Source of the DNA: a virus
IMG/VR virus record: IMGVR_UViG_3300009074_000009
Location: 1 to 38,056 of that record
Length of the DNA stretch: 38,056 nucleotides
Direction: 5' to 3' (one strand)
The notes beneath the pieces are model-generated. The model saw only the letters and a program-made list of their open reading frames with translations, made no database searches and was not told the DNA's origin. Position numbers and translations under genes: made by a program. This document shows positions 5,932-35,500 of this stretch, one piece after another (the first letter of the stretch is position 1; each line of letters opens with the position of its first letter).

Positions 5932-7640
5932 CTTGTTTCATCCTCTCCCTCAGCACCGCTAATTGCTGATTCGCCTTCATCACCAGCTGTATCTGCTAGC
6001 TCATCATCACCAAATTCATCTGGATCTGCCTCAAAGTCATCAAGACTTCCATCAGCACCGCCTTGGACGCCTACACTACCCAAGTCGCTAAATTCATCAT
6101 TATCAACACCGGAGCCAGCGACATCCTTAATTGGGTTTTCTTGCTTCCACATCTTTTCATTTTCAAGGATTTCATCCTCGCTCAATTGTAGATATTTCTT
6201 GAGTGCAAATCGCTTACTCATATAGTCAATTCCTTCCAACTGACCAAAGACACCAGCGCGGGCTCCGTTGATTTCAATTTCTCTGTAATCACTAAAGCTC
6301 TGTGGCTCTACAAAGTCTAGTTCAAACTGGCTAGAATCAATTGAATATCCACGATGCTTGAGGAACATCTTAAACTCTTTATCAAATGTTGGCTGTACCA
6401 TACGTTGCAAACGCTGGCAGTATTGTGTGAACCTATATTCCTGAATAAAGGCAGTACCAACACGCCCATCATTAAATGTTGCAGTTCCATCGTCAGGACC
6501 AGTAGGTAGGTAGCTTGACGGAATACGTAGACCTCTTGCAAGTTTGTTGTTAAAGAACTTGAGATCATCAATATCGCCTAGGTTATCACCGCCGGGCAGT
6601 GTATCAACTTTTGATCCACGTCCTTCCGCTGTCTGTGCGAAGAAATAGTCTTCCATGATTGAAAGCGGGTTATATTGTGCGTCCATCATGTTGCTACCGC
6701 CACCCGTTCTACTTGGGATACGGCGCTGGTGGATCTCGTTTTTAACACGCTCAACATGGCTCATAGCCTGGTGCGCTGGCATATCACCTACGTCAATGTA
6801 GAAGATGCGGCGCTCAGGTGCACGTTGTACACGGTAAATGATAATACTGTCTTCAAGTAGTTCTTTTTGCTTGTAAGTTTTGAATACTGCATCTAGAATA
6901 CTGTTACCAAAAGGCCAGCTCATGTCCATTCCATCAGTCAGTGCCATGTGAATAACATGTTTAGCATCTACTTGGTGTTCTACATCACTGTTCATTCCTG
7001 ATGCAGCGTTCACCTGTCCCATATTACGGTTCTGTGTACTGTTGACCATTGTGCTTGGGCTAATTCCTGCCCCTGCATATCCAGAACTACCTTGCGGGGT
7101 AGTTGCTGTCAAAGTTTGGAAGTTTGGATCAAGGTTTTTAAGGATGTATTGTGCTGGCTCTTTACCATTTGCTTCATCAACAATAACACGCATAACATCG
7201 CTTGGGTTAACATAAAACAGTTTCCAAGTTTCTGGATCACGCACAAAAGGCTGGTCGCCGTATTTGATTGTGTTGCGGAATGTATTGAATAGACGACGGT
7301 TCCAGTCATTAACGCGGCACCACTGCTTGAGTACTGTTGCTAACACATCGCTTTCAGTCTCTGTTGGGCTATCATTCCATTTGATTTTAAATGGAGTTTC
7401 TGTTTCTTCGTCTTGTTGTGTTGAAAATTCAGCAATTGTATCTAGTGCAGTGTTAATTTCACTGTCCATATCCATCTGATCATACTGTACATATCGCTCA
7501 AGACGGTTAGGCTGACCTACATATACTTCAGGTAGCCAGCTTTGGAATCGTGTAGATGTGTTACGGTCACGATTGCGGGCGTCACCACTAATCGGGCTTT
7601 GTGTGCCATTGTAGGTTTGGAAGTGTTTTTTCCATGACAT
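5928..7640 (-). CDS. gp20: Portal protein gp20
   Basis: The 570-aa product forms the ring at the head vertex through which DNA is packaged and to which the tail attaches. Typical gp20 stretches are visible: YVQYDQMDMDSEINTALDTIAEF near residue 50, WNRRLFNTFRNTIKYGDQPFV near 105, RAPERRIFYIDVGDMP near 280, and KVDTLPGGDNLGDIDDLKFFNNKL near 350. RIPSSYL and DGRVGTAFIQEYRF follow. The length is close to T4 gp20 (524 aa). The last 50 residues are strongly acidic and poorly conserved in look. An AGGA site precedes the ATG at 7640. Confidence 0.96.
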   Translation of the reverse strand: MSWKKHFQTYNGTQSPISGDARNRDRNTSTRFQSWLPEVYVGQPNRLERYVQYDQMDMDSEINTALDTIAEFSTQQDEETETPFKIKWNDSPTETESDVLATVLKQWCRVNDWNRRLFNTFRNTIKYGDQPFVRDPETWKLFYVNPSDVMRVIVDEANGKEPAQYILKNLDPNFQTLTATTPQGSSGYAGAGISPSTMVNSTQNRNMGQVNAASGMNSDVEHQVDAKHVIHMALTDGMDMSWPFGNSILDAVFKTYKQKELLEDSIIIYRVQRAPERRIFYIDVGDMPAHQAMSHVERVKNEIHQRRIPSRTGGGSNMMDAQYNPLSIMEDYFFAQTAEGRGSKVDTLPGGDNLGDIDDLKFFNNKLARGLRIPSSYLPTGPDDGTATFNDGRVGTAFIQEYRFTQYCQRLQRMVQPTFDKEFKMFLKHRGYSIDSSQFELDFVEPQSFSDYREIEINGARAGVFGQLEGIDYMSKRFALKKYLQLSEDEILENEKMWKQENPIKDVAGSGVDNDEFSDLGSVGVQGGADGSLDDFEADPDEFGDDELADTAGDEGESAISGAEGEDETR

Positions 7641-7667: not shown

Positions 7668-9839
7668 TTAGCCATTATTTTCGATTGCGTCAAGTTGACG
7701 ACGCATAAGGCGATTGCCTTCTTCCATAGCTGATGTCAATTGCCGCAAGTATTCCTCGCCGCGGCTTCCGTGACGCCAGGCATTATCTGCATTTATGTCT
7801 GTTTGAATTGATCCATCTTGTTGTGTTTGTGCACCTTGAATAATCATATGATTGCTATCTATACGTTGGGACGCTGGATCAAATGCAGGAATTGGTTCGT
7901 GTGGTGCGGTTGCATAATCTCTCATTGCTTGACTCATATCTAAGTCGTTATCATACCCTGGACCTATACCAACTACTCCTGCAGCACCAGTAACAAGGTT
8001 TGCGCCAATATCACCAACTTCTAATAATGCTTCAGTAATACCTAATAGGCTACGTGATATTAAGTTAAAGTCAGCTTCGATAAATTCTTCATCAGCCATC
8101 CCCATAATAGCAGCAATAGCAGTACCATAACCAGGAATTTTTTTTCCTAAGTTTAGTGCGCCGCGGCCTGCGGCGGCGGCCCTTGCAGCCATACCAGTTC
8201 CAGCTGCTGTGCCTGTTGCGGCTGTCGTCGCTGCACCAGCAGTTAGGGCGGTCGTAAGGGCTTTAGCAGCAAACAAACTTGAAATTCCAGCTACCATGGC
8301 TGCGATAACAGCTGGTGCTATCCATAAAGCAGCTATACCTGCGACTATAGTTGCAACACCTATACCATCATCACCAAACAAGTATTCTTTCCAGGCTAAC
8401 ATATCTTCTATTATTGTATTAAGTTCACGCCCCCATTTTTCAAAATCAAGAGTGTCAAGTGCTACAAAATCTTCAACACCAAATGCTGCTAATACGCCTG
8501 CTCTAAGATTTTGAAGGAACACTTCTAGTTCATTACGGAAACTAATTAATTTTTCTGTTGTATCATCCATAGTCTCTGCAAAGTTTGTGGCGCGTCCTGG
8601 GTCATTTGCAGCGGCGGCCGTTAATCGGCTCTCTACAACGGCTTGCATTAATAGTCCAAATTCAGCTGCTAATGGTCCGGCTACGCCACCAGCGTTGAAA
8701 ATTTGGGATTGTTCTCTTATATACACTTCTTGTTCTTGCAGGTGTTTGGACGTATTGAAGGCGAAGTCTCTATTGACTCTAGCAGCGGCTTCAGAATCAC
8801 CGGCAGCGGCAAGTATATCTTTACCATACTGTGTGACGAACTCCCTTAATCCTGTCATTTCCAATGTGGCCATCATTTCTGCGCTCATCATAGGCATGCC
8901 TGTCTTAGCTTCAACAGTAGCAGCTTTAAGTATTTCAATAATACCAGAACTTGCCTCTCCAAATGTGGCGGTTGCCATATCAGTCATACCTTGGGCTGCG
9001 GTAATACCACTTGCGCCAAATTCACCCATCATGCTCATAAACATAGGATCGGCGTCAACAGCGGCGCGGTTACGCATCATGTCACGTGAATTGCGACCAG
9101 TAATACGCGCATATCCAAGCACTTCTCTGTTTAAGATAGTAAAGCTATCAGCCGCGCCGCCAAATAATTCGTCACCAGTTATACCTGCTTTGACAAGAGT
9201 ACCAGTTAATTCAGCAAGCTGGCCCGCTATTTCTTCACTTACATACCCATAATTGCCCATATGATCAGTCATATCACGGGTCACCATTACGAGGTCTTTA
9301 AACCTTGTAGCTGATTCAGCACCAGTCACACCTAAGCTGCGCAATGCATCACCATTATTTGCAAGTATTGTACTAAATTGAGTAAAATTAAGACCAATAT
9401 TTGCTAGTTCTTTACGGCTTTCAATAAGTTGATCACTAAAACTAAAACCACTTTGAATAGCAGAAACTTGCGCATCAACAAATGCATCAAATGTACCAGC
9501 AGCAAAACCAGCGGCGCCGCCTAGTGCGCCCATTCCGCCGACAACACCAAGTAGTCCATCTGTTACGCTCTTTGCACTTGCTTCAATGCCCTCAAGCTTG
9601 CCGCCCACTCGTTCAGCAGTTTTACCTAAACCTTTAAATTTTTCCTTTGTGTCTGTTGCCGCCTTGCTAAGGTTACCAATACTTTTTGTTGCATCGCCTT
9701 CAGCTTTAGCTTTTTTCTTGCCAGCTGGACTTTTAGGGCTGAGTGCAGCCAAAATATCTTGTTGAGTTTCTTCAGTTGCCCACTGTGGTACTTTAAATAC
9801 TTCGCCAGTCGTGCCTATAGGAATTTCAATATTTGCCAT
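7668..9839 (-). CDS. Probable tail tape-measure protein
   Basis: The 723-aa product has the make-up of a tape-measure protein. It has a charged N-terminus (GTTGEVFKVP, a K/A-rich linker), glycine/alanine-rich hydrophobic stretches near residues 90-115, and long amphipathic helices through the middle. A strongly hydrophobic segment lies at about 490-530 (VATIVAGIAALWIAPAVIAA), followed by an Ala/Gly-rich stretch, with a helical end (LTSAMEEGNRLMRRQLDAIE). It diverges from gp26 and its frameshift extension. A late promoter lies at 9888-9895. In T4 the tape measure is gp29; direct similarity to gp29 is not obvious by eye. It could instead be another large tail or internal virion protein. Confidence 0.75.
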   Translation of the reverse strand: MANIEIPIGTTGEVFKVPQWATEETQQDILAALSPKSPAGKKKAKAEGDATKSIGNLSKAATDTKEKFKGLGKTAERVGGKLEGIEASAKSVTDGLLGVVGGMGALGGAAGFAAGTFDAFVDAQVSAIQSGFSFSDQLIESRKELANIGLNFTQFSTILANNGDALRSLGVTGAESATRFKDLVMVTRDMTDHMGNYGYVSEEIAGQLAELTGTLVKAGITGDELFGGAADSFTILNREVLGYARITGRNSRDMMRNRAAVDADPMFMSMMGEFGASGITAAQGMTDMATATFGEASSGIIEILKAATVEAKTGMPMMSAEMMATLEMTGLREFVTQYGKDILAAAGDSEAAARVNRDFAFNTSKHLQEQEVYIREQSQIFNAGGVAGPLAAEFGLLMQAVVESRLTAAAANDPGRATNFAETMDDTTEKLISFRNELEVFLQNLRAGVLAAFGVEDFVALDTLDFEKWGRELNTIIEDMLAWKEYLFGDDGIGVATIVAGIAALWIAPAVIAAMVAGISSLFAAKALTTALTAGAATTAATGTAAGTGMAARAAAAGRGALNLGKKIPGYGTAIAAIMGMADEEFIEADFNLISRSLLGITEALLEVGDIGANLVTGAAGVVGIGPGYDNDLDMSQAMRDYATAPHEPIPAFDPASQRIDSNHMIIQGAQTQQDGSIQTDINADNAWRHGSRGEEYLRQLTSAMEEGNRLMRRQLDAIENNG

Positions 9840-9860
9840 TATATACTACTTTTATTATGG

Positions 9861-9868
9861 ATAAATAC
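9861..9868 (+). promoter_or_regulatory. T4-type late promoter for gp26
   Basis: The plus strand reads GGATAAATACAT. Transcription would start near 9873, downstream of the ATG at 9848. This rules out an upstream gp26 start on this transcript and supports the GTG at 9911. Confidence 0.7.
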
Positions 9869-9887
9869 ATATACCCAAGCTTATATT

Positions 9888-9895
9888 GTATTTAT
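9888..9895 (-). promoter_or_regulatory. T4-type late promoter for the tape-measure gene
   Basis: The minus strand reads TTGATAAATACAAT. Transcription would start near 9882 and give a leader of about 43 bases before the ATG at 9839. It faces the plus-strand late promoter at 9861-9868. Confidence 0.7.
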
Positions 9896-9910
9896 CAAAA
9901 GGATCAAGCA

Positions 9911-10759
9911 GTGACAAATAATCCACTATCAGAATTTTATACCCAGACAGGTATGTACGTTAAACTTCCAAGTCAAGGTAGATTTTACTCAGAGCGCCCG
10001 CGCATGTCAGCGGATGATGAAATTGAAGTATTTCCAATGAACGCTATTGACGAGTTGCATTTTCAAAACCCAGATGGACTACTTAACAATGAAAGTCTTG
10101 TTAAAGTGTTGCAACGTACTGTGCCTGGCATAAAAGATGCAAACGAAATACCTAAGCCTGACTTAGATGTATTGTTACTCGCATTACGAGTTATAACTTA
10201 TAGTAAAGATTTACAAGTTGAGGCTAAATGTAAAAAATGTAGCAACATTGAAAATTATGGCGTTGACTTAACACAAATTTTAAGCACAATGAAATCAATT
10301 CCAGAGGACAATGTTGTTAAAGTTGGCGAGTTAATGGTGCATATAAAGCCATACTCAATCAAAAGCCAAAACAGACTTAATGATTACATGCTTAGTATCC
10401 AGCGGACCGCGCGACAATTACAATCACATGTTAATTCTGATCAATCAGAATTACTTGCGAGATTACAAGATAAGATGACTAATGATGTTAAGTTGAGTGC
10501 CAATGAATTATTTAGTATTGCACGTGAATCTATTATCAAAATTCTGTTACCAAACCAAGATGAAGTGTCTGACCAAACGTTTATTGACGAATGGCTAAAC
10601 AAAATCAAAGCGCCTGAATATAAGCTGATTAGAGATAAATTAGCTACTATTAGTGCTGAAACAATTGATCGAACTTTTAAATTCGTGTGTGAATCATGTA
10701 AAACAGAAAATACAATGGAGGTGAATTTTGACCCTGCAAATTTTTTCGATCTCAACTAG
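9911..10759 (+). CDS. gp26: gp26-like baseplate hub / tail assembly protein
   Basis: The 282-aa product belongs to the T4 gp26 baseplate-hub group, recognisable by MYVKLPSQGRFY near residue 15. Two CxxC pairs (C107/C110 and C260/C263) could form a split zinc ribbon. I choose the GTG at 9911: it has AAAAGGA just upstream and lies after the late promoter, whereas in-frame starts near 9833-9848 precede that promoter. The frame ends ANFFDLN-stop inside an A/T slippery run, so a fraction of ribosomes probably continue in the -1 frame to give a product of about 375 aa. It is divergent from the tape-measure gene, which fits a tail-assembly role. Confidence 0.85.
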   Translation: MTNNPLSEFYTQTGMYVKLPSQGRFYSERPRMSADDEIEVFPMNAIDELHFQNPDGLLNNESLVKVLQRTVPGIKDANEIPKPDLDVLLLALRVITYSKDLQVEAKCKKCSNIENYGVDLTQILSTMKSIPEDNVVKVGELMVHIKPYSIKSQNRLNDYMLSIQRTARQLQSHVNSDQSELLARLQDKMTNDVKLSANELFSIARESIIKILLPNQDEVSDQTFIDEWLNKIKAPEYKLIRDKLATISAETIDRTFKFVCESCKTENTMEVNFDPANFFDLN

Positions 10760-10800: not shown

Positions 10801-11037
10801 CGTTATGACAGTGAACGTGACAAGTTAACTAAATCATTAATGCAACTTAGTATTGCTGCATCCATGCCGTATGCTGACCTCGTGCATATGAGTCATAATG
10901 AACGCAAAATACTTTTACAGGTTTTGGAAGAAAAGGTAGCAGCAAGCGATCCTAATAAACAAAAGCAAATGAAAATGACACCAGGACAAGTTAATGGTCC
11001 ACAAGGACCTGCGCCAACTAGATCAGAATCTCGATAA
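10747..11037 (+). CDS. -1 frame extension of gp26 (gp51-like position)
   Basis: After slippage the -1 frame encodes RSQLAKTTEYHEVVEIVERY and onward for 96 residues, ending GPAPTRSESR. It is helical and charged. The frame has no ATG, GTG or TTG start between its opening at 10732 and the ATG at 10840, and that ATG has no ribosome site. A free-standing gene starting at 10840 (65 aa) is therefore possible but less likely than a gp26 fusion. In lambda-like and other tailed phages, tail assembly chaperones are made as a short and a frameshifted long form next to the tape-measure gene; the layout here is the same in principle. Homology to T4 gp51 is not shown. Confidence 0.7.
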   Translation, partial: RSQLAKTTEYHEVVEIVERYDSERDKLTKSLMQLSIAASMPYADLVHMSHNERKILLQVLEEKVAASDPNKQKQMKMTPGQVNGPQGPAPTRSESR

Positions 11038-11063
11038 TTAAGGCAGAACTCCGTCAACCGTAA

Positions 11064-11071
11064 TATAAATT
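11064..11071 (+). promoter_or_regulatory. Possible late promoter for the structured intergenic RNA
   Basis: The plus strand reads TATAAATT, seven of eight bases matching the T4 late element. Transcription would start near 11077, just before the hairpin at 11082-11100. It differs in its last base from the other late sites in the window (ATAAATAC/T), so it is tentative. Confidence 0.4.
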
Positions 11072-11076
11072 CATCC

Positions 11077-11656
11077 TATTGGATAGTCCTTCGGACTATC
11101 TGTTGCATCGCATCTCTCATCTCCATTCCACTTCGTTTCATTCCGATTCGATTTGCTCTCAACATGTTTTTTGGTTTAGAAAATGTATATTATATCGTGA
11201 TTAAAAGCTTTAATATACGGCGAAGCTTACTATTGGCTATTTACCAGAACCAATAACCACACTTAGCCTGAAATCGGCTAAGCATGGTTAAGCTGTCGGC
11301 ATTTACCGTCACCAACTCGTCGTAACGAGCCACATCATAACAGAAAAACCTTGTATAGCCAGGTTAAGGGCGGTTGAGCGATACCCTTTTACATTCTACT
11401 CTCAACGCGGGACCACGGAGTGCTGTTATGATAACACGACGCTGCCTGTAAGTTTCAATTGTCAGAAGAGCTTACTCATTTTCTGGGTGTCAAACCAGTG
11501 CGTAGATGACTGCGACATGCCAGTTCTGTCAACGCAATGGTTAAGTTGCGCCTTCTCAAGGCATTTTGCGGGGTCGCTATGGTCAGGGTTCTGGAGGTGG
11601 TCTCAATTAGCCTATATTAGCCGTTCAGTAGACTTTCAGTTTTTATGCCTAAAGTC
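11077..11656 (+). ncRNA. Candidate large structured non-coding RNA, unknown family
   Basis: About 600 bases between two convergent gene blocks contain no credible gene but many helices. (1) Hairpin GATAGTCC/GGACTATC, 11082-11100. (2) TATTGG/CCAATA, 11231-11255. (3) AACCA plus CTTAGCC pairing with GGCTAAG plus TGGTT across a symmetric CA/CA loop, 11255-11289. (4) CTCGT/ACGAG near 11316-11329. (5) A 10-bp long-range helix, ATCATAACAG (11334-11343) with CTGTTATGAT (11423-11432). (6) Inside it, AACCT/AGGTT abutting AAGGG/CCCTT, whose loop GTTGAG (11373-11378) can pair with CTCAAC (11401-11406) as a pseudoknot. (7) CAGAAGAG with CTC and TTCTG, 11463-11485. (8) CGCAA/TTGCG, 11533-11550. (9) GACTTT/AAAGTC, 11631-11656. 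The heptamer GGTTAAG occurs three times. The strand is uncertain, and the ends are approximate. Confidence 0.5.
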
Positions 11657-11665
11657 CAAAGGCAA

Positions 11666-12175
11666 TCATTCGTGCGCTTTTGCAAACGCCGTAGTATTGA
11701 GATCGAAAAAGCTATCGAACTCTGTAATTTTCCATTCCCAAGTCGCATCGTCAATATATGTTACTGCACGATGTGCGACGAATGGTTGTGTTGTTTCAAA
11801 TGCTACAAACTTACCAACACGAGTAATCTTCATGAATAGAATGTTTACGTCGCCTGGGTCAGCAGCATCACGTATCTGTCCTAACCAGTCCTCAAGTTGA
11901 GGTACTCGTTCATTAAAAAGTAAGCGATGGAATGGGAAGCTGGCATAGTTCTTACACTCACAATTGAAAAAATTCCAATCATCTGGTGGAACAATGTCAC
12001 CTTTCATATGTCGTATTTGACCCTCACTCATGGTTGTTTTCCGGAAAGCGTTCATGCCGCCGGTGTAAGCCCCGCTATTTGGAACCCTCATGAATGGTTT
12101 GTCATATACATTACTTAAATAATTGGCGACGTCACGTTCCCATGCACCACCTTTTGCTTTACTTTTAGAGGTCAT
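11666..12175 (-). CDS. PD-(D/E)XK-type nuclease
   Basis: The 169-aa product carries the layout of a small PD-(D/E)XK endonuclease or Holliday-junction-resolvase-like enzyme: GGAWERDVANYL (E13), MKGDIVPPDDW (D60), and FFNCECKNY (E73 and K75). The cysteine between the acidic residues and the following basic and aromatic residues are common in this fold. It is the last gene of the gp47-gp46 operon and overlaps the preceding gene by 11 bases. This fits a role in DNA recombination, repair or processing. The exact substrate cannot be told from the sequence. Confidence 0.8.
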   Translation of the reverse strand: MTSKSKAKGGAWERDVANYLSNVYDKPFMRVPNSGAYTGGMNAFRKTTMSEGQIRHMKGDIVPPDDWNFFNCECKNYASFPFHRLLFNERVPQLEDWLGQIRDAADPGDVNILFMKITRVGKFVAFETTQPFVAHRAVTYIDDATWEWKITEFDSFFDLNTTAFAKAHE

Positions 12176-12515
12176 TTAATATCTCTGCCAATGCTGGTCC
12201 AACACCTCGCCCTGAATATATAGTATCATCTTCAACACCAATATCAGAAGTTTTAATTGTAATTGAACCTGCCCTTGGGTCAGTGCCAGTATACTGGGGG
12301 TTAGTGTGATAATAATTTGGATCATCTCCGATCCAATACTGCCTGGTCTGGTCAGGACTAGACGTTAAACCAGTTCCCGTTACACTAACTGTATTCCAGT
12401 CACTGGACCAGTTACTGGTTGGGATATATGTGGTTCCACTCATCGTGGATGTATTATTTGATAAGGAAATTTCCTTACATGGGTTAATTGTAGCACTATT
12501 TTTACTCAATGTCAA
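12165..12515 (-). CDS. Hypothetical 116-aa protein
   Basis: I do not recognise this protein. It is rich in S, T, N, G and Y with few hydrophobic helices (SWNxT-like stretches, YWIGDDPNYYHTNPQYTGTDP), so it looks beta-rich. The C-terminus GRGVGPALAEILNDL is helical. Its start overlaps the end of gp46 by 14 bases and its end overlaps the nuclease gene, so it is translated within the recombination operon. Its composition is more like a virion-surface protein than a DNA enzyme, which is odd in this place. Confidence 0.75.
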   Translation of the reverse strand: MTLSKNSATINPCKEISLSNNTSTMSGTTYIPTSNWSSDWNTVSVTGTGLTSSPDQTRQYWIGDDPNYYHTNPQYTGTDPRAGSITIKTSDIGVEDDTIYSGRGVGPALAEILNDL

Positions 12516-23155: not shown

Positions 23156-26100
23156 ATGACACAAAGCGTAAGACAGAGAAATTTATTTGCGGCGGAAGAT
23201 TATCGCATCGTTTATGATAGCTTCAAGCAGGCAAATTTTCAAGCATACGACTATGACACAATTAGAGGTGCGCTGGTAGATTATATCCAACAGCAATATC
23301 CAGAAAATTTTAATGACTGGATTCAAAGTAGTGAATTTGTTGCTCTAATCGAGACACTTTCGTTTCTTGCTCACAGTTTAGCATTTCGAATTGACCAAGC
23401 AGGACGTGAAAACTTCCTTAGCACTGCAGAGCGGCGCAGTAGTGTTCTACGTATTGCTGACTTTTTAGGATATACGCCGTCAAGACATCAGCCTGCACGT
23501 GGCCAACTTAAAGTGACAGGCATCCGCACAACACAAAATGTTTTTGATATAAACGGCAACAACCTCAAAAATACCGCAGTTGATTTTGAAGATAACTTCC
23601 AAAACTTTTTGTTAATTATGAATGAAGTTTTGAGTGACACCAATAAGTTTGGTCGTCCTACTAATAGCACACGAATCGGAAATGTCAAGAATGATATTTA
23701 CTCAACTAAAGTAGTTGACAACAGAAATGTAACATACAATATAAATGGTGAAGTTAATGGTACCCGCCAGGCTTTTGAAATCCACAGCTTAGAAGTAAAC
23801 ACAGCCAAGAACACACTACAAGAAACAGAGCCAGATCCAAATAGTAGCTTTGACCTCGTTTATAAGAATGACGGACAAGGCTTAGGTAGCAACAGTACAG
23901 GCTTCTTTGTTGGATTTAAGCAGGGCACCTTACAATTTACAGATATTAACGCTGACAAAGCGGTTAGTAATCTAATAGTAGATGTGCAATCAACAAATAT
24001 TAACAATAGCGACATTTGGGTGCAGGCAATTAATAGTGCTGGTGAATTACAAGACTCCTGGACTAAAGTTGATGCAGGCTTTGGTGCTAATACAGTATTC
24101 AATAATATTCGTCAGGACAATCGCAAACTTTATACAGTAAAGACAGTAGAGAACGACAACATCAATGTACAATTTGGTGATGGTGTGTTTAGCGAAATCC
24201 CACGTGGAATTATTCGTATTTGGTATAGAAATGGTGTAAACCAGACTTATACATTGGACCCTGAAGATATTGGTAGTGCAACCTTTGGCTATAACTACAA
24301 CGCAAAGGATGGTAACGTTTATCGTGTCACCTTTACTTGTGAATTACAAGAGCCAGTTAATAATGCTGCGAGCCAAGAAAGTGTTACTAGCATTAAAAAC
24401 AATGCTGGGCGAGTATTTGCTACACAAGATCGTATGATTACTGCTAGCGATTACAGCGTATATCCTCTTACAGTGAGCGAGAATGTTAAGAAAATTAAAG
24501 CAATCAACCGTACATACACAGGACACAGCCGCTTTATTAAGCCGCGCGATCCAACAGGCACATATCAAAATGTAGACATTGTGAGTGATGATGGCTACAT
24601 TTATACTGATGGAATCACATACCGTAGCAGCTTAGACTTACCTTCTACACTCACAAGTGAACAGATATTTGAACGGTTTTTAGCAGACCTTATTGAAAAT
24701 CCTGAGATTATTAATCTGTTCTACGACAAATATAATGAAACTGATGTTGACTTTAGTGTTAACAGTAGCAGCTATGAGTGGCAGCAAATTACAAGCGGTT
24801 ACCGCGGATCAACAGGATATATCACACGTAACGGTACAATACAAAAAGTTGGATCATCAGCAATTAATGAGCTGAACCTTGCCCGCCCTGGCTCAATTGT
24901 TGAGTTTGTAGAGTCACCATACAATGCAGGTACACTTGGAGTAATAGGCTCCACATTAAATATTGTTAACGCAGGAACTGGATTTACTAGCGCACCTACT
25001 GTAACTATTAAAGGTACAGGCACAGGGGCGGCGGCAACTGCTACCATCACTGCCGGACAATTAGGTACAGTAACACTAACAAATGGCGGTACAGGATATC
25101 AAAATCCTGTCGTTGTAGAAATTACTGGCGGAAGCGGAAGCGGCGCAGAAGTTGAAGCAACAGCAACTAGCGCATCACGTGGCTGGGCCCGTATTGTAGA
25201 CATTTCAAATGATGGCCAAGGTGTTAATGACAGCAATGGTAACCCTACAGGACTTACCTCACGTGGGCAGGGTGCAGTTATTCTCAACAAGGCTATCCCT
25301 AACACTGCCCGTGTCAGTCGCATATTCCCAGCTTATCATACTGTTTTTAGTTCAGAAGAAAGAGAAGCAATTATTGATGAATTAGTTTCACTTAATACTT
25401 TTGGATTACGATTTGACAGTGAACTAGGACAGTGGTTTATTATTAAGGCAGGTGATCTTTCTCCAGCTACTGATAATAGTCCTGATAATTTCAGCCTAGA
25501 TAATGCAGGCAACGCAAGTAACAGTAATACAGATAACAGCTGGATCATACGTGCAGATTATTCTGCAAGTTCCTGGGGATTTATATCACGCCGAACACGT
25601 TATGTATTTGGTAGTGATGAACGAATCCGCTTTTATAATCAGAATGGCGCACGTCGTTTCAACTTAGATACAAACAAACCAGAGCGTGATCGTATATTGA
25701 TCAATAAAGTAAATACTCGCCCTGGTGGAAGTGTTTACCCAATTGAAGAAACATTGCCATTCTTTACCTTTCGTTACTATACTGAGCCTGACGGCTATAC
25801 AGATGACCGAAAAGTTATTGTTACCTTAGCTGATATTGATAATGACAATTATCCAGACAACCCACTAGCGTTTTCTACACTGGTAGGAAGCGACAGTATC
25901 AATCTCAACACTGTCACTGAAGATGGTTTTACTTACACAGTGCGCAGCGATACTGGAACGGAAGTTAATGGACGTGAAGCCCTTAGTTTTGTATGGCGCC
26001 GCGTATCAACATCAAAATATCGAATCGATCCTAGTTTGTCAAATATTATTGACATCTTCGTTCTTAACCAGAATTATGATACTAAATATCGAGAGTGGAT

Positions 26101-26581
26101 TGCAGGAACGCGCAATCTAGCAACAAAGCCGTCTCCGCCTACTGAGGTTGAATTAGGCCAACAGTTTGCTAGTATTGAAACTAAGAAAGCAATCAGCGAC
26201 AGTGTGGTATATCGTCCAGCAGAATATAAGATTTTGTTTGGTGAATTAGCAGACATAGAGGTACAGGGTAGGTTTAAAATTGTGAAAGTAACAGGCACAA
26301 CGTTAACAAATAATGAGATTAAATCACGTGTACTGATTGCAATTAATGAATTCTTCAATATTGATAACTGGGACTTCGGTGAAACGTTCTACTTTACAGA
26401 GTTGAGCGCATACATTCACCAAGAAATGCCAGGTATTATTAGCAGCGTTGTAATCACACCTATTCAAACTAGCAGCGTATTTGGTGATTTATTTCAAATA
26501 TCACCAGAGAGCAACGAATTGTTCATCCCAGACGTAACACTACAAGATATCGACATTGTCGACTCATTAAACTCATTGTAA
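23156..26581 (+). CDS. gp6: Baseplate wedge protein gp6 (enlarged)
   Basis: The 1141-aa product matches gp6 at its start (YDTIRGALVDYIQQQYPENFNDWIQSSEFVALIETLSFLAHSLAFRIDQAGRENFLSTAERRSSVLRIADFLGYTPSRH). It also has VQFGDGVFSEIPRGIIRIWYRNG near residue 340 and the QDRMITASDYSVYPL block near 425. The C-terminal part (LADIEVQGRFKIVKVTG, INEFFNIDNWDFGETFYFTEL) is also gp6-like. T4 gp6 is 660 aa. Much of the excess lies between about residues 520 and 1000 and includes a Gly/Thr-rich repeat module at about 592-672 (NAGTGFTSAPTVTIKGTG and NGGTGYQNPVVVEITGG). gp6 forms the iris-like inner ring of the baseplate. Confidence 0.92.
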   Translation: MTQSVRQRNLFAAEDYRIVYDSFKQANFQAYDYDTIRGALVDYIQQQYPENFNDWIQSSEFVALIETLSFLAHSLAFRIDQAGRENFLSTAERRSSVLRIADFLGYTPSRHQPARGQLKVTGIRTTQNVFDINGNNLKNTAVDFEDNFQNFLLIMNEVLSDTNKFGRPTNSTRIGNVKNDIYSTKVVDNRNVTYNINGEVNGTRQAFEIHSLEVNTAKNTLQETEPDPNSSFDLVYKNDGQGLGSNSTGFFVGFKQGTLQFTDINADKAVSNLIVDVQSTNINNSDIWVQAINSAGELQDSWTKVDAGFGANTVFNNIRQDNRKLYTVKTVENDNINVQFGDGVFSEIPRGIIRIWYRNGVNQTYTLDPEDIGSATFGYNYNAKDGNVYRVTFTCELQEPVNNAASQESVTSIKNNAGRVFATQDRMITASDYSVYPLTVSENVKKIKAINRTYTGHSRFIKPRDPTGTYQNVDIVSDDGYIYTDGITYRSSLDLPSTLTSEQIFERFLADLIENPEIINLFYDKYNETDVDFSVNSSSYEWQQITSGYRGSTGYITRNGTIQKVGSSAINELNLARPGSIVEFVESPYNAGTLGVIGSTLNIVNAGTGFTSAPTVTIKGTGTGAAATATITAGQLGTVTLTNGGTGYQNPVVVEITGGSGSGAEVEATATSASRGWARIVDISNDGQGVNDSNGNPTGLTSRGQGAVILNKAIPNTARVSRIFPAYHTVFSSEEREAIIDELVSLNTFGLRFDSELGQWFIIKAGDLSPATDNSPDNFSLDNAGNASNSNTDNSWIIRADYSASSWGFISRRTRYVFGSDERIRFYNQNGARRFNLDTNKPERDRILINKVNTRPGGSVYPIEETLPFFTFRYYTEPDGYTDDRKVIVTLADIDNDNYPDNPLAFSTLVGSDSINLNTVTEDGFTYTVRSDTGTEVNGREALSFVWRRVSTSKYRIDPSLSNIIDIFVLNQNYDTKYREWIAGTRNLATKPSPPTEVELGQQFASIETKKAISDSVVYRPAEYKILFGELADIEVQGRFKIVKVTGTTLTNNEIKSRVLIAINEFFNIDNWDFGETFYFTELSAYIHQEMPGIISSVVITPIQTSSVFGDLFQISPESNELFIPDVTLQDIDIVDSLNSL

Positions 26582-26590
26582 GGTAATTAA

Positions 26591-29500
26591 ATGGCTATAG
26601 ACTACACTGCCAACCCAACAGACGTAAAGAATTTCACAACAACCTCCGAGGTTAATTTAGATCAAAGCTTCCAAGATTATAGTGAATTTCTACCAAGTAT
26701 TAACCGTACTGAATCACTACAGCGGTTCTTTGGTGCGACTGTTAATCAGCTTCTTAGCAGCGGTTCAACGCAAACTATTGATGCTTATTGGGGTCGTTTG
26801 GCAGGACGTAACTATAACCCAGATAATGAATTATTTCAACCTGAAATATCAGCTAACCGCATTAACTACCAATTCCAGCCTGGCGTTGTTAGCCGTCTTG
26901 GTGGGGATGTTGAACAAACAACTTCTTATATTAACTGGTTGGACCGTATTGAAAGCCTTGGTGCAGATCTAGACAATCATGATCGTATATTCAGTGAGCC
27001 TGGTTATGTATTAGATCTTCCTATCAATGCAGATATGTTTATCAATTACCGCAACTATTACTGGTTAGAAGGTGAAATTCCCCTAATTGAAATTGAGGCA
27101 ACAATTACTGATCCAATTGATATTGATGATATCGTTGCGCAAAGCCAATATACAACACCTGACTTGGGTAACTATAAAACAGTAGAATTTGTTAATGGTA
27201 TTCGCGTTAAATTTACTGGTCTATATGTATCTAGTACAAGTGGTGACTATAACGTTGATTCTATTTACTATGTTGAGAATGTTGGTGGACGCGGCGGCAT
27301 TAAGCTAGTTGAAATTGAAGACGCGAGTGGAAACATCTTGTTTCCAGAAACTAGCCTCTACCGTGTTGAACCACGTGAAGGTTGGGACACTGTTGATTAT
27401 GACGCCACCCCTTGGGATGGCACAGCTGATTATGACGATTATGACCTAGCTACCAACGCGAGCCGAGAAGATCTTGCACTTAACAAAAGTTATATTGTTA
27501 TGGAACGTTGGGCACAAGATAAAAACCCTTGGGCAAGAACAAATAAGTGGTTCAGCATTTATGCACTTCGTGCAGCGACAGAGTATAATGAACTTACTTT
27601 AGAAGCTTACCTTAACACACGGACACGAGCAGACCGACCAATCGTCGAATTCCATGCTAACTTAGAGCTTTACAATACATGTAAAACTTATGTTGAAACA
27701 TTAGATTATGTTATTGACTTGAATCAAGTTACCGACATGATAAGTGGTCGTCCAGACTTTCTTATTGACAGTGAAAACGCTGTTCAAAATGGTGATATTA
27801 TTCTTGTTGCAAAAGAAGAAATTGGCGGAATTGAACTTGTTGACTTTAATGGTGACTTTAATGACGATTTTGACGCTGGTGCTGCCGTAGGCGGATCATA
27901 TAGCTCTAGCTTCAGCCTGGCATATAATCTTGGTGTACAGGGAACATTTTATGAGGACGCATTCATAGTAAGCGGTGTTGGCACAAACATTACGCTTTCA
28001 GCATATAGCAGCTATAATGAAGATGAATACATTATTGTAGGTAAGGGAACAGAAAAAGGCACAATTTTTTGCTTTAAGAATGGCGAATGGTCTGTAGCAC
28101 AAAACAAAGAGAATCGTGGAGATGCTCCGCTGTTTAAACTATATGACCAGGATCTAGTAGATCTTGAAGCTTTTGATAATAATGATTTCTTAGGTGATTT
28201 AGTATTTGGATATGAAGTTACACCTGGCGCACAATTTGATCGTGAATTAGGATTTTCACCAACATTTACTGATCAAGGTTCGTTTAACAATTTTAAATTC
28301 TCTTGGACACTGAGTAATCAACGTTATAACCAGAACGTTACAGTTGATACACAAGAAGAAATTGTAGGCTATTACTTTTATCATAATTGGATAGAGGATG
28401 AATACCTAAACGGCTGGAGTAACATTCAAGAAGGACAACGTGTCCCTGTTATCCAAACTCAGATTGCTGACGGTGTTAGCACTGTGGAATTTGAGTTGGG
28501 CACTAGTGCAGTTGGGAGATCAACTGAATATACTGTTGCTCTTGAAAATAATAAATTCCGTTGGCATTCACACAGTTATATTGACCGCAATACAATTGGA
28601 TATGCTAACCCAGACTTTATTTGGAAATATGACACAAACTATACAATAAATGATTTAATTTCTGTAGATGCTAGTAAGTTGGAAATGACTGACCCGTTTG
28701 GTAATGCAGATGGTAACATCACTTACAGTGGAACAGATACCCTAAAGACATTTAGTGTTGCTAGCGCATACGTGTATGATAAAGTCCTATATCGCAAGTC
28801 AGATGAGACTAATGTTTACGGTGAAATCTTCCTTAGCAATAGCAATCAAAACCGTTACGGGCTAACAAAAAATGGTCAAAGATTGGTTGAAGATGTTGAC
28901 TTTACATACAGCGGCACAACACTCACAGTTACAGCCACCACAGTAGAAAATGACGTTATTGAATTGCGTTACATTCCTGACTCAGATCTTACGGATGTAG
29001 TTTATGATGTTGCACCTGTACATTTTTACAATAACGACAACAACCCATTCAATGGGGCTGGATATGATGATCTAATTAACCACTTTATATTACAGGTCGG
29101 GGCAATGCCTGGACTTGAAGGAAAAGTTAGTGGTACCAACAATTATCACAAAACATTTCGCAAGCACACATACGATGGATTGATTCGTCAACAAATTTTC
29201 AGGACCAAACATATTCAATATCTACTTGATCAAGAAGATATTAACCCAATCCGCGCACTCAAGTCGTTTAGCCGTGACTATGTTGATTTTAAGAAATCTT
29301 TCCGTAGCAAGGTTTCTCAGTTGTGGCAGACAGAGTCCTGGAACACCACCCGCGAGCTAGTAGACCGCGCACTCAGTGATATCAATATTGGTAAAAATGA
29401 GTCGTTCAAATATTCACATAGTGACATGCTTTATTATAAGCAAGCCCGCAGCACCACATATATTATTGGCGATAGCACAACTACTTTTGCATTGCCAGAA

Positions 29501-32500
29501 CTAATTAACCGTTACGGCGATACACAAAACCACATCCAGGCTTACCTGACAGAAACAGTAGCAGAAGTTGGCGCAGTAGTTGAACGCCCTCTGACCTTAG
29601 GTGTTGACTACACTATCGAAGGACCAAACCTTGAACTAGCAACCGCTGTCGTTAGCACTAACATTGTAAACGCATTAGACAACGTTGTGAACGGCCCAGA
29701 CAATGTCGTTCTTGAAATCGGTACTAATGACTCTGGAACCTCCGGCGCAATATTAACGATTCGCTGGTATGATTATACACAACACAGTCATGTTCCATTC
29801 AGTGCAGTAAAATTAGGATTCTTTAAACCAACCCAAATTGAAATTGTTGATGGTGAATTAATTGGTCATGATGGTAGCAGATATACATTGACTAATACTA
29901 ATGTATATGATTTAACTAGCGTAGATTTTGATCCAGTTGCCGCAGCACTTTGGGACTTTGAGCTACGTATTATTAATAACCTTGTCCCTGAACATTTTGT
30001 AGACGACAAAATGGGTCAAGATATGATTAGCTTCTATCCAAACCCAGTAGGTGAATTTAGCTATAGTGTAGCAGATATGAATGCACGACTTGACGATTGG
30101 TACAACCGTTACGCTGTTCGCAATGGTATAACTGAAATTGATCAAGTAGACTATAACGCTGGTGACGAGTTTACATGGAATTACAACACAGTTGGTCCAG
30201 AACTTGGCAGCTGGCGCAGCCTATACACTTATGAGTTTGGAACTGATCGACCACATACCCATCCTTGGGAAATGTTAGGTCATCACATCAAGCCGACATG
30301 GTGGGATGCAACATATAGCTGGACGGCTGGCGCACTGCGCACCGCACTTGAGGATGCATTGCTTTATGGAATCACAGGCAATGCATTGACGCCTAGCTAT
30401 TCAGACATCCGTTACGCAAGACCAAATTATGATTGGGCCAATGACACACTAGTAAGTTCTGATGGAAATGCTACCCTAATAGGACCAGTAACAGCTAATG
30501 TAGTTGCTACACCAACCGCCGTGGCGGCAGCGCAAGATTTTGTGTTTGGTGATTGGAGTGAGACTGAAAATAGATGGCGCAAGAGTAGTGAATACCTATT
30601 TGCACTTGCTGAAGTATATCTACAGCTAAAACCATATCGTCTACACGAAATATTTTGGAAGCTTGATCAATGGAATGTCAATACCAATGTCACACAAGAG
30701 CAATGGGTTGACCCAGATACATGTCAGCGTTTGCACATCAATGAACTACATAACCAACTTATTGAAGATGGAATCATTGGTAAGATTTCCGTTGTCACAC
30801 CTGGCACTGGTTACACATACCTGGACCTAGAATTTAAAACTAATGATTTGGTTTGTTACCGCACTGCGTCAGCCGTAGCGTATACAAATGCTGGTCAAGC
30901 AGTTGGCGTTGCAATTACTGATCCAGGACGTGGATTTGACAATGATCCTGTTGTTGAATTGACTGGACCAATTGCTTCTACTGGTGTAGAGTTAGAATAC
31001 GTATTGGATTTCAATTTCATTGTAACACACTTGGGATTTAATACATTACCGTCAGAAGAATATCGCACACAAGAAAGCACAACTAACGCGCTCAGCGAGC
31101 GTCTAGATGGACTTGAAATTAACTATACATTGCATGTTGGTGGATATACTGACAAGCGTATCTTGAATATTGAAATTGATGGTGACTATGAAAGTGGACT
31201 TATTCGTATTCCAGAATCAAGCTATGATATTAAAATTGATCGTAATGCACCAATCAAGACAGCATTTTACAGTGGTGTAAAAATTACAAAGATTGAGGGC
31301 AGCGGATATCAGGTTGATGGATATGATCTAGACAGTACGTTCTTCAACTTCCTACCTCCAAGCACTGCTGGTACACAAGTTGGTGTAGAAATTGGTGGCA
31401 CTGAGGTAGTCAAATATCTCAAGTGGCATAATAATCCAACTCGTATTCCATATGGTACACGCTTACTCAAGCGCCAAGAATTGTACCAATTCCTATTAGG
31501 ACTTGGCAAATATTATGAAAGCCTAGGATTTGATAACTACAGCCGTTGGGAGGAGGAAGCCCGACTCGCTATTATCTGGGCGCTAGACAGTGTTGAGACT
31601 GAACCACACTACGTTAACGGTATAGATGGCAGCTTATTTTATAACCAGGGTAGCCGAGGCGTTGTACAGCAAATCGATATAAACTATGATGGTGTTAGCA
31701 ACGTATTGGACTCAGAATTTAAGAATATTCGACGCAATGAGCTCTTAGTTTTGCGTGATAACGAAATGACAGAAATTAGTATGAAGGGTGGCGACGACCG
31801 TATATACGGCGTGGGAGTAAGAGTTGTTGAATTTGAACACATTGTTGCATTTGACAACGTGACTACATTCAATGATCCAATTTACCAACCAGAACTTGGA
31901 TTGGGCCAAAACCGTGTACGACTTATAGGTGAGCGCACCCGTAATTGGAATGGTCGAGTTGAAGCGCCTGGTTACATGGTACAAGACACTGGACTTATCC
32001 TTAACATGGAAAACAGTGTTCATGAATTAGAAACAGAATGGGTGTCGGCAGAAAGTAAAGCACTAGAACGCCTGACACGCCAAACAATTGGCTTTAATGC
32101 AGGATACAGCAAACCAACATATATGACCAACCTGTTTATTGGTGATAAAACTGCATACCGTTTTGAAAAAGGTAAGCGCAAATACCAAGGAACCGAATCA
32201 GCAATTGCAGCAATGACTCGTAACAAGAATATCTTTGGCAGCGAATTTGAGCATGAACTATATGAAGAATGGCTAGTACGTTTAGGTGAGTATGGTGATG
32301 TTAGCGAAAGCAGACCACTTCAGTTTGCAATTGATCCTAACCAAATTAAGACAGATCCACAGCACTTCCGTTTCAGCGAGCAGTTTGTAAGTGATAAGAG
32401 TGAAGACCTAATCATTGACTTACATAAAGGCGCAGCAAATTCAATTTCAGGAACATATGATTCACCCTTCAGCATTTATGATGTGTTGCCATTGGACAAC

Positions 32501-35500
32501 ACAAGCATTCAAAATCTAGAGCAGTATCAGGACTTTACTCGTGACGCTGGCTTGCCAATTGTTGATGAAGTTGATTATTTCTTAGGAAGTATTGATGATA
32601 TTGGCGACATTTATGATCCAACAGCGCCCTATGCACTTGTACCAAATTGGAGTTCAACCACTGCATATGTACAAGGTGAATTGGCTCGTCTATATGGAAA
32701 AGTTTATCGCCTCGCTATTGATGCAACAGGACTAACTGACGTACAAGGTGATATTGTAGTACGTGGTACTCAGATATTCCCACAGGTTGCTAGCGGCTTA
32801 ACATTTATTGCTAACGGAACAACGGTTAATTTTAGCAAAGACGGCAGCAGTATTACATACGATAATATACAACTACAAGGTACAGTAGTAAACCCAACAG
32901 TACCAAGTGGTGATACACTAGTTCTTGACGGTATTAACGTTAACTTTATTAAAGATGAAACTACTACAACATATAGTGATATTGTTCTTGAAGGTGGGGT
33001 AACAGGTCCTGACATACTTAACAGCGCCAGCCGTACATTGGAAATCTATTATGCTAACTCAGCGTCACCTACACTAATGACAACTGTTACAGTGACGTTT
33101 AACGAGCTAAATCCAGAACTCACAATGCAGACGATTTGGAACAATGCACTTGGTGATGCTATTACAACAGCAGGCGGCGCAACAGTCAGCCTTACAGAAA
33201 CAAACGCACGTATTGTAGCACTCGACGCATTACGTGCGGCATATATTGCAGCAGGCAATACTACCACGGCATGGCAAACTCGTATGCTAGAATATTATGA
33301 TGAAGTACCAGGAATCGCACCTGATCGATTCCTTAACCCAGAATATTGGGGCACGCAGATCCTAGCTGCTGGAGTTCCAACTTGGCAGTCAGAAGCTGAA
33401 GCCTTAATGCAATTGGATCTGGATCTGATTGCAGATATTGGTGGTGCACATAGTGAAGACATTGCGTCAATGACGTCAGGATCTCTTAACAGTGCTGGAA
33501 CTTGGAATACCGCCCGTGACGCAGCAAATGATCTTCTAGACTATAATAATACGGTATCAGACAATAACCAAAACTTACAGGATTACCGAACATTTATAAC
33601 AATTATCGGTAGTACCTTTAGTGCAGGTCAACTAATTACAGTAACTAATCCTATAAATTATGTATTGGATGACATAACTGCAATTGCTAACAAGATTGCC
33701 GCAGCATTAACTCTAGCCGGCGCTCCTGGTGATATTACGGTAAGCCCAGCAGGTAATATTATTACACTTACCCGCACAAACAATGCTGTTGGTTATCGTT
33801 TAGGTGTTGAAAATGACACAGATCTAGGATTTACTGGTGTAACTGATGTGCAAACACAAGGCACAACATCAACAATATCAGTTCCTCTTACTTTAAGCGA
33901 AGCTGTTATTGCTATCAATAACTTTTCAATAACAGGTGTCACCGCACAAATTGCTAGCAATCAACTACGTATTGTAAGTACAAACGAACAGTTGGTAGTT
34001 GGTACTGGTTCAGCAAACAATGACTTTGGAATTAACCAAGGAACTTACAATGCAACTGCTAATACTGTACCTGTTCTGGTAGACTTAGCAATTGGTGATG
34101 TTGTGACGCAGATTAACGATGCTAGTATTACTGATCTGGTTGCAAGTCAAGTTGAGGGTGCATTACTATTGAGTTATGCAGGTGATCAGCTTATAATTGG
34201 TGATGGAACATCTAATACTGAATTAGGCATTATTGCGCAAACATACGAGAGTCAGACTGACAGTGTTAGCAATGTATTTAATGCTGATGAATGGGACGTT
34301 GTACAGGACCCAGCTAACTTTAACGTTTGGACAATTGACAATATTGGAAGTAACACAATAGGGTCTGTAAGTACAACCAACCGTTATGATGTATTACAGA
34401 CTATGGATTTACAAATTGGTATACTTGAAGTTTGTGCTGGATCTGAAAATGGTGATGATGCGCTTATCCAATGTGATACAGCACATACACTCGCTGTTGG
34501 TGACTATGTTTTACTAGTGAACACAACAAGTGTACCAAGCTTGGACGGAATTTATCAGGTAACTACCCTCCAAAGCGATACAGGCTTCTACGTTGATCGT
34601 TATATTGAACAAAAAGGATTTACTGGAAAAGTATTCCCAATGCGTTCTGTCCGATTCCCAAGCAGCACGGTTGCAGAAGCAGCAATGTCAGATACAGATT
34701 ATATTCAGGACGGACTAGGACTGCGCAGCGGAACTTACGTTTATGTGGATGAAGTATTTGATGGTGGCAATAACGGTCTTGGCTACGGTGCAGTTTATCA
34801 AGTGCAACGTACAACTGGCGGCGCCGGACTAGTTCTAGTTCGTAACGAAACAGGTAAGACTAATAACAGCACAATCAAGAATGGTGTGCTTTATAGTAAT
34901 TCAACTGGTGAGACAGTTGTGCGTTTTGAAATTTATGACCCGCTCAAAGGAATTATTCCAGGTATTGCGGCGGCTGAACTTGATCTGCGTAGCGATGTAG
35001 ACTTTGCTTATTACACTGACTCAACCGATCCAGAACTTGAGATTCGTCCTGAAAACGCATGGGGCAACCGTCAAGTTGGTACAACTTGGTGGGATTTGAG
35101 CAATGCAATTTACCTTAATTATGATCAAAGCTCAACAGAATATCGTCAAGAGCAATGGGGCCAACTATTCCCAACAGCAACAATTGATGTTTATGAATGG
35201 ACAAAGAGCTCAGAAACACCTGATGATTATCTCACAGCCGTACAGGCAGGTACAATTATTGATGGTGTAGAGTTGACAGGACAGCCTTACCAAATTGAGG
35301 ATCAATTTGGTGATGTACAGTACAATTGGTGCGAAGAGATGGAAGTCAATCGTAATACCAATCAAATTGAAACATACTATTACTTCTGGGTAAAGAACAA
35401 AACAACTACACCAACCCTGGAACGTCAATACAGTGTTCTGCAGATAGCTGACATTATTATAGATCCAACGACACAGGCAGTTGACTGGCTTGCAGCAACA

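Follow-up and report, generated by a model that had tools for sequence, protein, structure and literature searches.

GOLLD RNAs, many of them longer than 800 nt, are phage-borne, fold elaborately, have an unknown function and are often encoded near tRNA islands, according to the available part of a recent account (PMC12286853). The same part of that source describes ROOL, which is 659 nt long in the solved example, occurs in phages and prophages, contains several predicted pseudoknots and has no known protein partner; both GOLLD and ROOL form oligomeric cages. RNAs of this type accumulate abundantly or upon induction, but the examples named in the available text of PMC12286853 and PMC7567579 could be dispensed with. 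The latter excerpt also describes, in the lytic phage ICP1, a very abundant noncoding transcript of about 800 nt that arises from ORF-less space next to the lysis genes. Non-coding RNA is mentioned once, for phiKZ, in the accessible portion of a review on jumbo phages (PMC13282480).

The RNA analyzed here, about 560 nt long, is likewise large, phage-borne and elaborately folded, but unlike many GOLLD RNAs it has no tRNAs nearby and lies mostly between nuclease and hub genes. It shares with ROOL a similar length, phage carriage and pseudoknots, but differs in having no tRNA nearby; proximity to tRNA genes is common, though not required, for GOLLD and ROOL. The ICP1 transcript, which we liken to it by description only, adjoins lysis genes, whereas the RNA here mostly neighbors nuclease and hub genes. 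Being long, highly structured, noncoding and equipped with several pseudoknots, and supported by covariation, it has the properties of a large ornate phage RNA. That kind of RNA is known; of the class itself, Rfam contains nothing beyond the 5' portion seen in relatives, and no description of it was found among the open-licence PubMed Central papers searched. It adds a large, strongly structured RNA class in jumbo phages to a small group that comprises GOLLD, ROOL and OLE.

The locus and its relatives

The window, by which we mean the whole 38,056-base virus record that was analyzed, encodes a portal (phrog_213), a hub (phrog_150; PF12322), a RusA-like/PDDEXK nuclease (phrog_244; PF24608), SbcC and SbcD. 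These genes are of the T4-like jumbo phage type and identify the record as a fragment of such a phage. Among named phages, those whose hub proteins rank first in similarity (31-32% identity) are Sinorhizobium phage Phosso and Agrobacterium phage Atu_ph07. Elsewhere in the window, a single plus-strand ORF of 3677 aa spans 26591-37624; it has no Pfam match, nor do ORFs at 23156-26581 (+, 1141 aa) and 7668-9839 (-, 723 aa).

A gap of 628 bases separates the end of a small plus-strand ORF at 11037 from the end of the minus-strand nuclease gene at 11666 (Table 1). The small ORF comes after the hub gene, the position that gene 51 takes after gene 26 in T4. The original prediction saw no credible gene in this gap, and that view is borne out: six ORFs of at least 30 aa are present in the stretch and none is conserved. 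The anchor string is present in 54 of the 68 core sequences, and each reading frame stays open in at most nine of these 54; because the frames are closed, a decayed gene is disfavored, and none was seen in the relatives. There are no tRNAs in the window or in 23 loci of relatives, and no tmRNA match in the window. Nothing in the window matches Rfam at gathering score, and a permissive scan of 10900-11800 gave a best E of only 4.6. GOLLD and ROOL covariance models found no match in the window or in the relatives' loci scanned, in agreement with the earlier remark that no sequence match could be defended. When the remaining Rfam families, with group I and II introns, RNase P and tmRNA among them, were applied to the window and relatives, only RF01718 reached gathering score.

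Table 1. Features of the RNA and of the adjoining genes, in window coordinates. Paired segments are given as strand 1/strand 2.
Feature	Position	Strand	Remarks
Whole RNA, ~560 nt	11080..11640	-	5' end near 11640, 3' end near 11080; ends inferred from conservation
5' domain	11490..11627	-	RF01718 sits at same position in relatives
Helix of 5' domain	11573-11577/11512-11516	-	
Hairpin of 5' domain	11544-11551/11532-11539	-	
Core domain, ~150 nt	11329..11480	-	Basis of covariance models R1 and R2; contains both pseudoknots
Helix A	11471-11475/11448-11452	-	100% paired in 68 sequences; two-sided changes at 4/5 pairs
Helix inside A	11465-11467/11454-11456	-	91.7% paired (68 core sequences)
Pseudoknot C	loop 11423-11432/11334-11343	-	93.3% paired; two-sided changes at 7/7 pairs
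Pseudoknot D	11402-11406/11373-11377	-	Crosses hairpin E; 99.1% paired; two-sided changes at 3/5 pairs
Hairpin E	11384-11388/11366-11370	-	Among 8 helices of core structure
Helix F	11394-11396/11343-11345	-	Among 8 helices of core structure
Hairpin G	11361-11363/11349-11351	-	Among 8 helices of core structure
15-bp hairpin	11254..11290	-	Plus-strand 'CA/CA loop' is tandem G.U on minus strand
A+T-rich linker	11165..11240	-	Variable in length and sequence (alignments)
3' stem domain	11102..11163	-	Two-sided changes at 11/13 pairs; 1 pair does not vary (11 sequences)
3' hairpin	11082..11100	-	Watson-Crick in 86/86 cells; 8/8 pairs vary (11 sequences)
RusA-like/PDDEXK nuclease gene	11666..12175	-	Same strand as RNA, upstream of it
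Baseplate hub gene, T4-type (phrog_150, PF12322)	9833..10759	+	Convergent with RNA
Small ORF past hub gene	10840..11037	+	No family match

Folded alone, the window sequence is structured hardly beyond chance (z-score -1.19 on the plus strand, where 2 of 20 shuffles were as good, and -2.00 on the minus strand, where 0 of 20 were); comparison with relatives decides the matter. The mean MFE of 73 family members, window included, lay below that of dinucleotide shuffles (eight each) by 14.9 kcal/mol on the plus and 17.5 kcal/mol on the minus strand. A blastn comparison of the gap with loci collected via their flanking proteins showed conservation in four other phage lineages (L095, L090, L092 and L011, plus duplicates), where 182-525 bases align at 72-80% identity; further relatives shared short conserved cores. 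Iterated nhmmer matched 79 of 163 sequences and, after a pattern scan, 191 of 288; both counts take in the window itself and contigs that were fetched more than once. A 22-base RNA motif, used without other criteria, led to at least 116 new loci; of the 116 listed, 115 were matched by the profile, and model R2 matched 76 of the 80 listed loci from a second pattern scan (80 of 120 stretches). The alignments were made with plain MAFFT, hmmalign and Infernal, and 159 aligned core sequences fell into 117 clusters at 90% identity. A pattern scan of genome contigs returned 10 stretches, none of which was matched by the HMM. Locus L287 (19.9 bits, E 0.005 with R1) had been preselected by motif and was treated as a chance match, and L143, an HMM match, scored no higher than 18.6 bits (E 0.3) when searched with R2. 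Judged by sequence comparison, the RNA represents a conserved and apparently widespread family.

Searches of whole records with R2 gave a match in 7 of 12 records (E up to 1) and 16 of 20 (E up to 0.1); the other five and four, respectively, had none, and virus records may be fragments. The 317,722-base record of L107 contains four divergent copies, at 12285 (-), 120356 (+), 251844 (+) and 315042 (-), which score 101, 85, 81 and 56 bits, and a 235,561-base record contains two. At locus L108, two adjacent divergent core-model matches on the same strand (6831-6954 and 6966-7102; 38 and 25 bits) look as if one core had been duplicated in tandem or split.

Placement was counted over 157 aligned loci with contig ends ignored; 93 of these had been reached partly via flanking proteins and 64 via the RNA pattern alone. 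Of the 93 and the 64 loci, 79 and 52, respectively, have a gene for a RusA-like or a SegE-type GIY-YIG (PF19835) nuclease on the 5' side, encoded on the RNA strand, and 76 and 30 have the hub gene on the 3' side, encoded on the opposite strand (106/157). In some loci the 5' neighbor is another kind of gene, for example a phosphorylase-like or deaminase-like one. Within a set of 107 loci, an ORF was called on the 5' side in 99 and is on the RNA strand in 93 of these; the 3' neighbor is on the opposite strand in 76 of 102 and on the same strand in 26.

Strand and covarying structure

The original prediction read the RNA from the plus strand, and this reading is rejected in view of RNAalifold and the asymmetry of wobble pairs. 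Consensus energies were lower for the minus than for the plus strand in each of three alignments (-126.9 vs -115.4 with 41 sequences, -234.1 vs -201.8 with 11, and -115.9 vs -100.3 with nine). In helices predicted on both strands, 139 wobble pairs fit the minus strand and 54 the plus strand; by helix, 17 of 22 favored minus and five favored plus (sign test, p 0.017). Across 34 core pairs, 106 G-U combinations were counted vs 18 A-C, and of the 22 pairs with unequal counts 18 favored minus and four plus. Weaker indications came from shuffle-corrected MFE, which was better on the minus strand in 46 of 73 members, and from a loose 76-sequence alignment. In the latter, a nearly neutral test that spoke only weakly for minus, pairs present in at least 60% gave A-C 84.4 vs G-U 49.1, with a slid control that itself had a ratio of 1.36, and pairs present in at least 80% gave 7.3 vs 5.3. 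The minus strand was accepted because the cleaner alignments decided the wobble test. RF01718, which was built independently by others, also falls on this strand, and we assign the RNA to it with high confidence.

With the RNA on the minus strand, the late-promoter-like sequence noted just before it loses that role: TATAAATT, on the plus strand at 11064, falls past the 3' end of the RNA and so cannot be its promoter, and the sequence is absent from aligned relatives. The hairpin with a symmetric CA/CA loop is present, although the loop is a tandem G.U on the minus strand. In alignment A6, columns 433/458 of this tandem are UG in six sequences and CG in five, and columns 434/457 are AU in six and GU in five; the positions are Watson-Crick in several relatives. 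Three copies of GGTTAAG do exist (starts 11286, 11362 and 11539) but are incidental and absent from aligned relatives. The perfect 10-bp long-range helix and the H-type pseudoknot of the original prediction both hold and correspond to pseudoknots C, which covaries, and D, which forms through the loop of hairpin E (Table 1).

Covariation across the family supports a large structured phage RNA, as had been proposed, and is strong in the helices listed at that time. In an APC-corrected G-test of 76 sequences, contiguous helices ranked among the top column pairs. The full-length fold has 97 consensus pairs, of which 58 show at least one two-sided change among 11 sequences of the window's group. 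The core, which carries the strongly conserved segment GUAAAAGGGUA..GC..AACCGCC, was evaluated in alignment A3 (68 sequences) with a structure of 34 pairs in eight helices, two of which cross others. Of 2298 cells, 94.4% were paired, a level that none of 500 shuffles reached (72.6% after shuffling); when the structure was slid, 35-47% were paired. Two-sided changes occurred at 26 of the 34 pairs. Position 11343 is able to pair in either pseudoknot C or helix F, and beside helix F, 11393/11346 is U.U in the window and paired in most relatives. At the other end of the RNA, the 3' hairpin may be a terminator usable from both directions; it is not followed by a U-run in the window.

Models R1 and R2 were built without either pseudoknot, and for this reason the pseudoknots could be checked in new sequences independently of the fit. 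Of 26 rows outside the R1 training set, 22 have letters at pseudoknot D, and 20-21 of these can pair there, with several pair types. It also pairs in 59-63 of 63 among the 64 sequences of the second pattern scan, where of the five 3' letters the pattern had fixed three, held one to C or T and left one free. Pseudoknot C in the model-fitted register was poorer, pairing in 8-19 of 25-26 at eight of nine positions in the 26 rows and in 20-43 of 60-63 per position in the second-scan sequences, apparently as a result of a shifting register. Because of these counts, a register-free test was performed in which each loop was matched first to the 3' tail of its own sequence and then to tails taken from other sequences. 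Watson-Crick runs of at least six were found in 61 of 68, 18 of 22 and 45 of 64 sequences, vs 14.8-18.9% with swapped partners (18.8-18.9% for the latter two sets). Taken together, we regard the existence of a structured RNA as close to certain.

RF01718 and named isolates

RF01718, the Polynucleobacter-1 motif, matched 19 of the 35 relatives' loci scanned (7/7, 11/20 and 1/8) above its gathering score of 37 bits. At each of the 19 loci the match is on the RNA strand and immediately precedes the core, such that the first ~144 nt of the RNA in these relatives are the Polynucleobacter-1 motif. RF01718 did not match the window itself, even with E values of up to 5 admitted. The earlier statement that there is no sequence match therefore holds for the window, which matches nothing in Rfam, but not for the many relatives in which the 5' quarter is RF01718. 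At locus L299 the core scores only 30 bits and the adjacent RF01718 match 79 bits; more distant core matches are supported because this weak core adjoins so strong a match.

As far as Table 1 of Weinberg et al. 2010 (PMC2864571) reports, Polynucleobacter-1 is scored 'y' (probably) as an RNA and 'y' as cis-regulatory, with Burkholderiales and fresh water/estuary entered as its taxa. A search of the open-licence PubMed Central literature for the RF01718 accession found it named only by that paper. The motif shares strand and sequence family with the 5' domain of many relatives, but it is only 141 nt long, and the core and 3' domains of the phage RNA lie outside it. In the loci considered here, RF01718 makes up the 5' portion of a longer RNA, which itself is located 3' of a phage gene. 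A piece of the class had thus been catalogued without being recognized as belonging to a ~560-nt phage RNA, and an orphan Rfam family is explained as one end of it.

Nine named isolates were searched with R2. Atu_ph07 gave one accepted match, at 490094-490269 on the minus strand (29.2 bits, E 9.6e-4), within an ORF-free gap of about 840 bases that spans the record end. Helices that could be recognized there by eye, and were not scored, are A (GAAG/CTTC), B (TATAGCGT/ACGCTATA), C (GTAGTAAA/TTTACTAC), D (GTTGT/ACAAC) and F (CGAGAAT/ATTCTCG). A second hit in this phage (E 0.147) was rejected by eye as coding-looking sequence without similarity to the first. Atu_ph07 probably carries the RNA and would then be an isolate in which it could be studied directly. 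The other eight isolates gave no convincing match: Phosso, PA5oct and SCTP-2 had none at E up to 1, XbC2, CBB and BF had only matches of E 0.2 or worse, and RaK2 and Munch had none. The best chance-level hit among them reached 18.4 bits. When the gap or the relatives' RNAs were compared by blastn with named phages, chance matches or none were obtained, except in Atu_ph07 with its own copy as query. Because eight of nine isolates lack a convincing match, the RNA is not general in T4-like jumbo phages.

ORF-poor stretches are present beside the RusA-like gene in Phosso (L007 10301-11316, ~1.0 kb) and PA5oct (L010 4478-5992, ~1.5 kb). They contain visible hairpins, match neither the RNA model nor Rfam, and may hold unrelated RNAs.

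Proposed production and possible roles

The reading we favor, at just short of an even chance, is that T4-like jumbo phages encode a conserved, large noncoding RNA that stands alone; it would arise at the 3' end of a nuclease operon and serve in trans as a scaffold, made of RNA only or an RNP. It would be transcribed as the 3' end of an operon ending in the nuclease gene (RusA-like here, SegE-type GIY-YIG in relatives), either be released by processing or start at a promoter inside the nuclease gene, and end near the 3' hairpin. Production from the operon is suggested because in several relatives the 5' end of the RNA abuts or overlaps the gene end, which leaves no room for a promoter. The nuclease stop codon overlaps the conserved 5' segment in L095, as do the last nuclease codons in L211, and no promoter fits between gene and RNA in either. 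In the window, 38 nt separate the nuclease stop from the conserved 5' segment, and a short promoter is possible there. We consider production from the operon's 3' end evenly balanced.

During infection the RNA would act in trans as a rigid scaffold, either alone as an oligomer or together with protein, and not as a cis-regulator of one gene. Action in trans is suggested because the upstream genes vary and the copies multiply, and a scaffold because GOLLD and ROOL, the closest RNAs in kind, build cages; resting on this analogy, the role is put forward more tentatively than the origin of the transcript. By a bolder extension of the analogy, which we think rather unlikely, the RNA would be a further class of RNA-only phage assemblies unrelated in sequence to GOLLD and ROOL. 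A jumbo phage would make one to four ~560-nt versions, the doubly pseudoknotted core would lock copies of the RNA into a homo-oligomeric particle or scaffold during infection, and the Polynucleobacter-1 motif would be the RNA's 5' arm.

The frequent placement after a nuclease gene is a point against a stand-alone RNA, since it could mean a link to that gene. The chief rival, which appears unlikely but stands well ahead of the others, builds on this placement: the RNA would be a long structured 3' UTR that serves to protect the nuclease mRNA (RusA or SegE) or to terminate it, and that stops both read-through and antisense transcription from the convergent late genes. Such a role would fit the same-strand gene, mostly a nuclease, that precedes nearly all the RNAs, the usually convergent next gene, and a 3' hairpin that is fully Watson-Crick for both strands. 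A terminator or stabilizer, however, needs no 150-nt core with two conserved pseudoknots, and the upstream genes come from several unrelated families. The 26 of 102 loci in which the next gene is on the same strand, together with the several copies in two records, also argue against it.

Regulation of the neighboring genes, whether as an antisense regulator of the late hub transcripts or as a cis-regulatory leader or riboswitch, is improbable. The hub gene does lie 3' of the RNA on the opposite strand in most loci, and Polynucleobacter-1 carries the cis-regulatory score given above in the tabulated part of PMC2864571. In the window, however, there is no overlap between the RNA and the hub coding sequence. 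As for a leader, the RNA lies 3' and not 5' of its gene, RF01718 is followed by the RNA core and not by a gene in 19 of 19 loci, and the downstream gene is usually on the other strand.

A role of the structure as DNA, for instance as a replication origin or packaging site, is very improbable: helix A is free of wobble pairs across 68 sequences and some phages have several copies, but the wobble asymmetry elsewhere is not expected of DNA and disfavors it. Equally remote is a single RNA-guided or RNA-dependent nuclease unit, arranged like a nuclease gene with its guide RNA downstream, which would suit an RNA directly 3' of the nuclease gene, in some cases overlapping its end, and the multiple copies in two records, but not the alternation of two unrelated nuclease families (PF24608 and PF19835) or the RNAs that adjoin other genes.

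Independently of the RNA, the nuclease position near the hub gene is variable among these phages. It is occupied by a RusA-like enzyme, by a SegE GIY-YIG enzyme or, in RaK2 (L443), by endonuclease VII, as if unrelated enzymes had filled one role.
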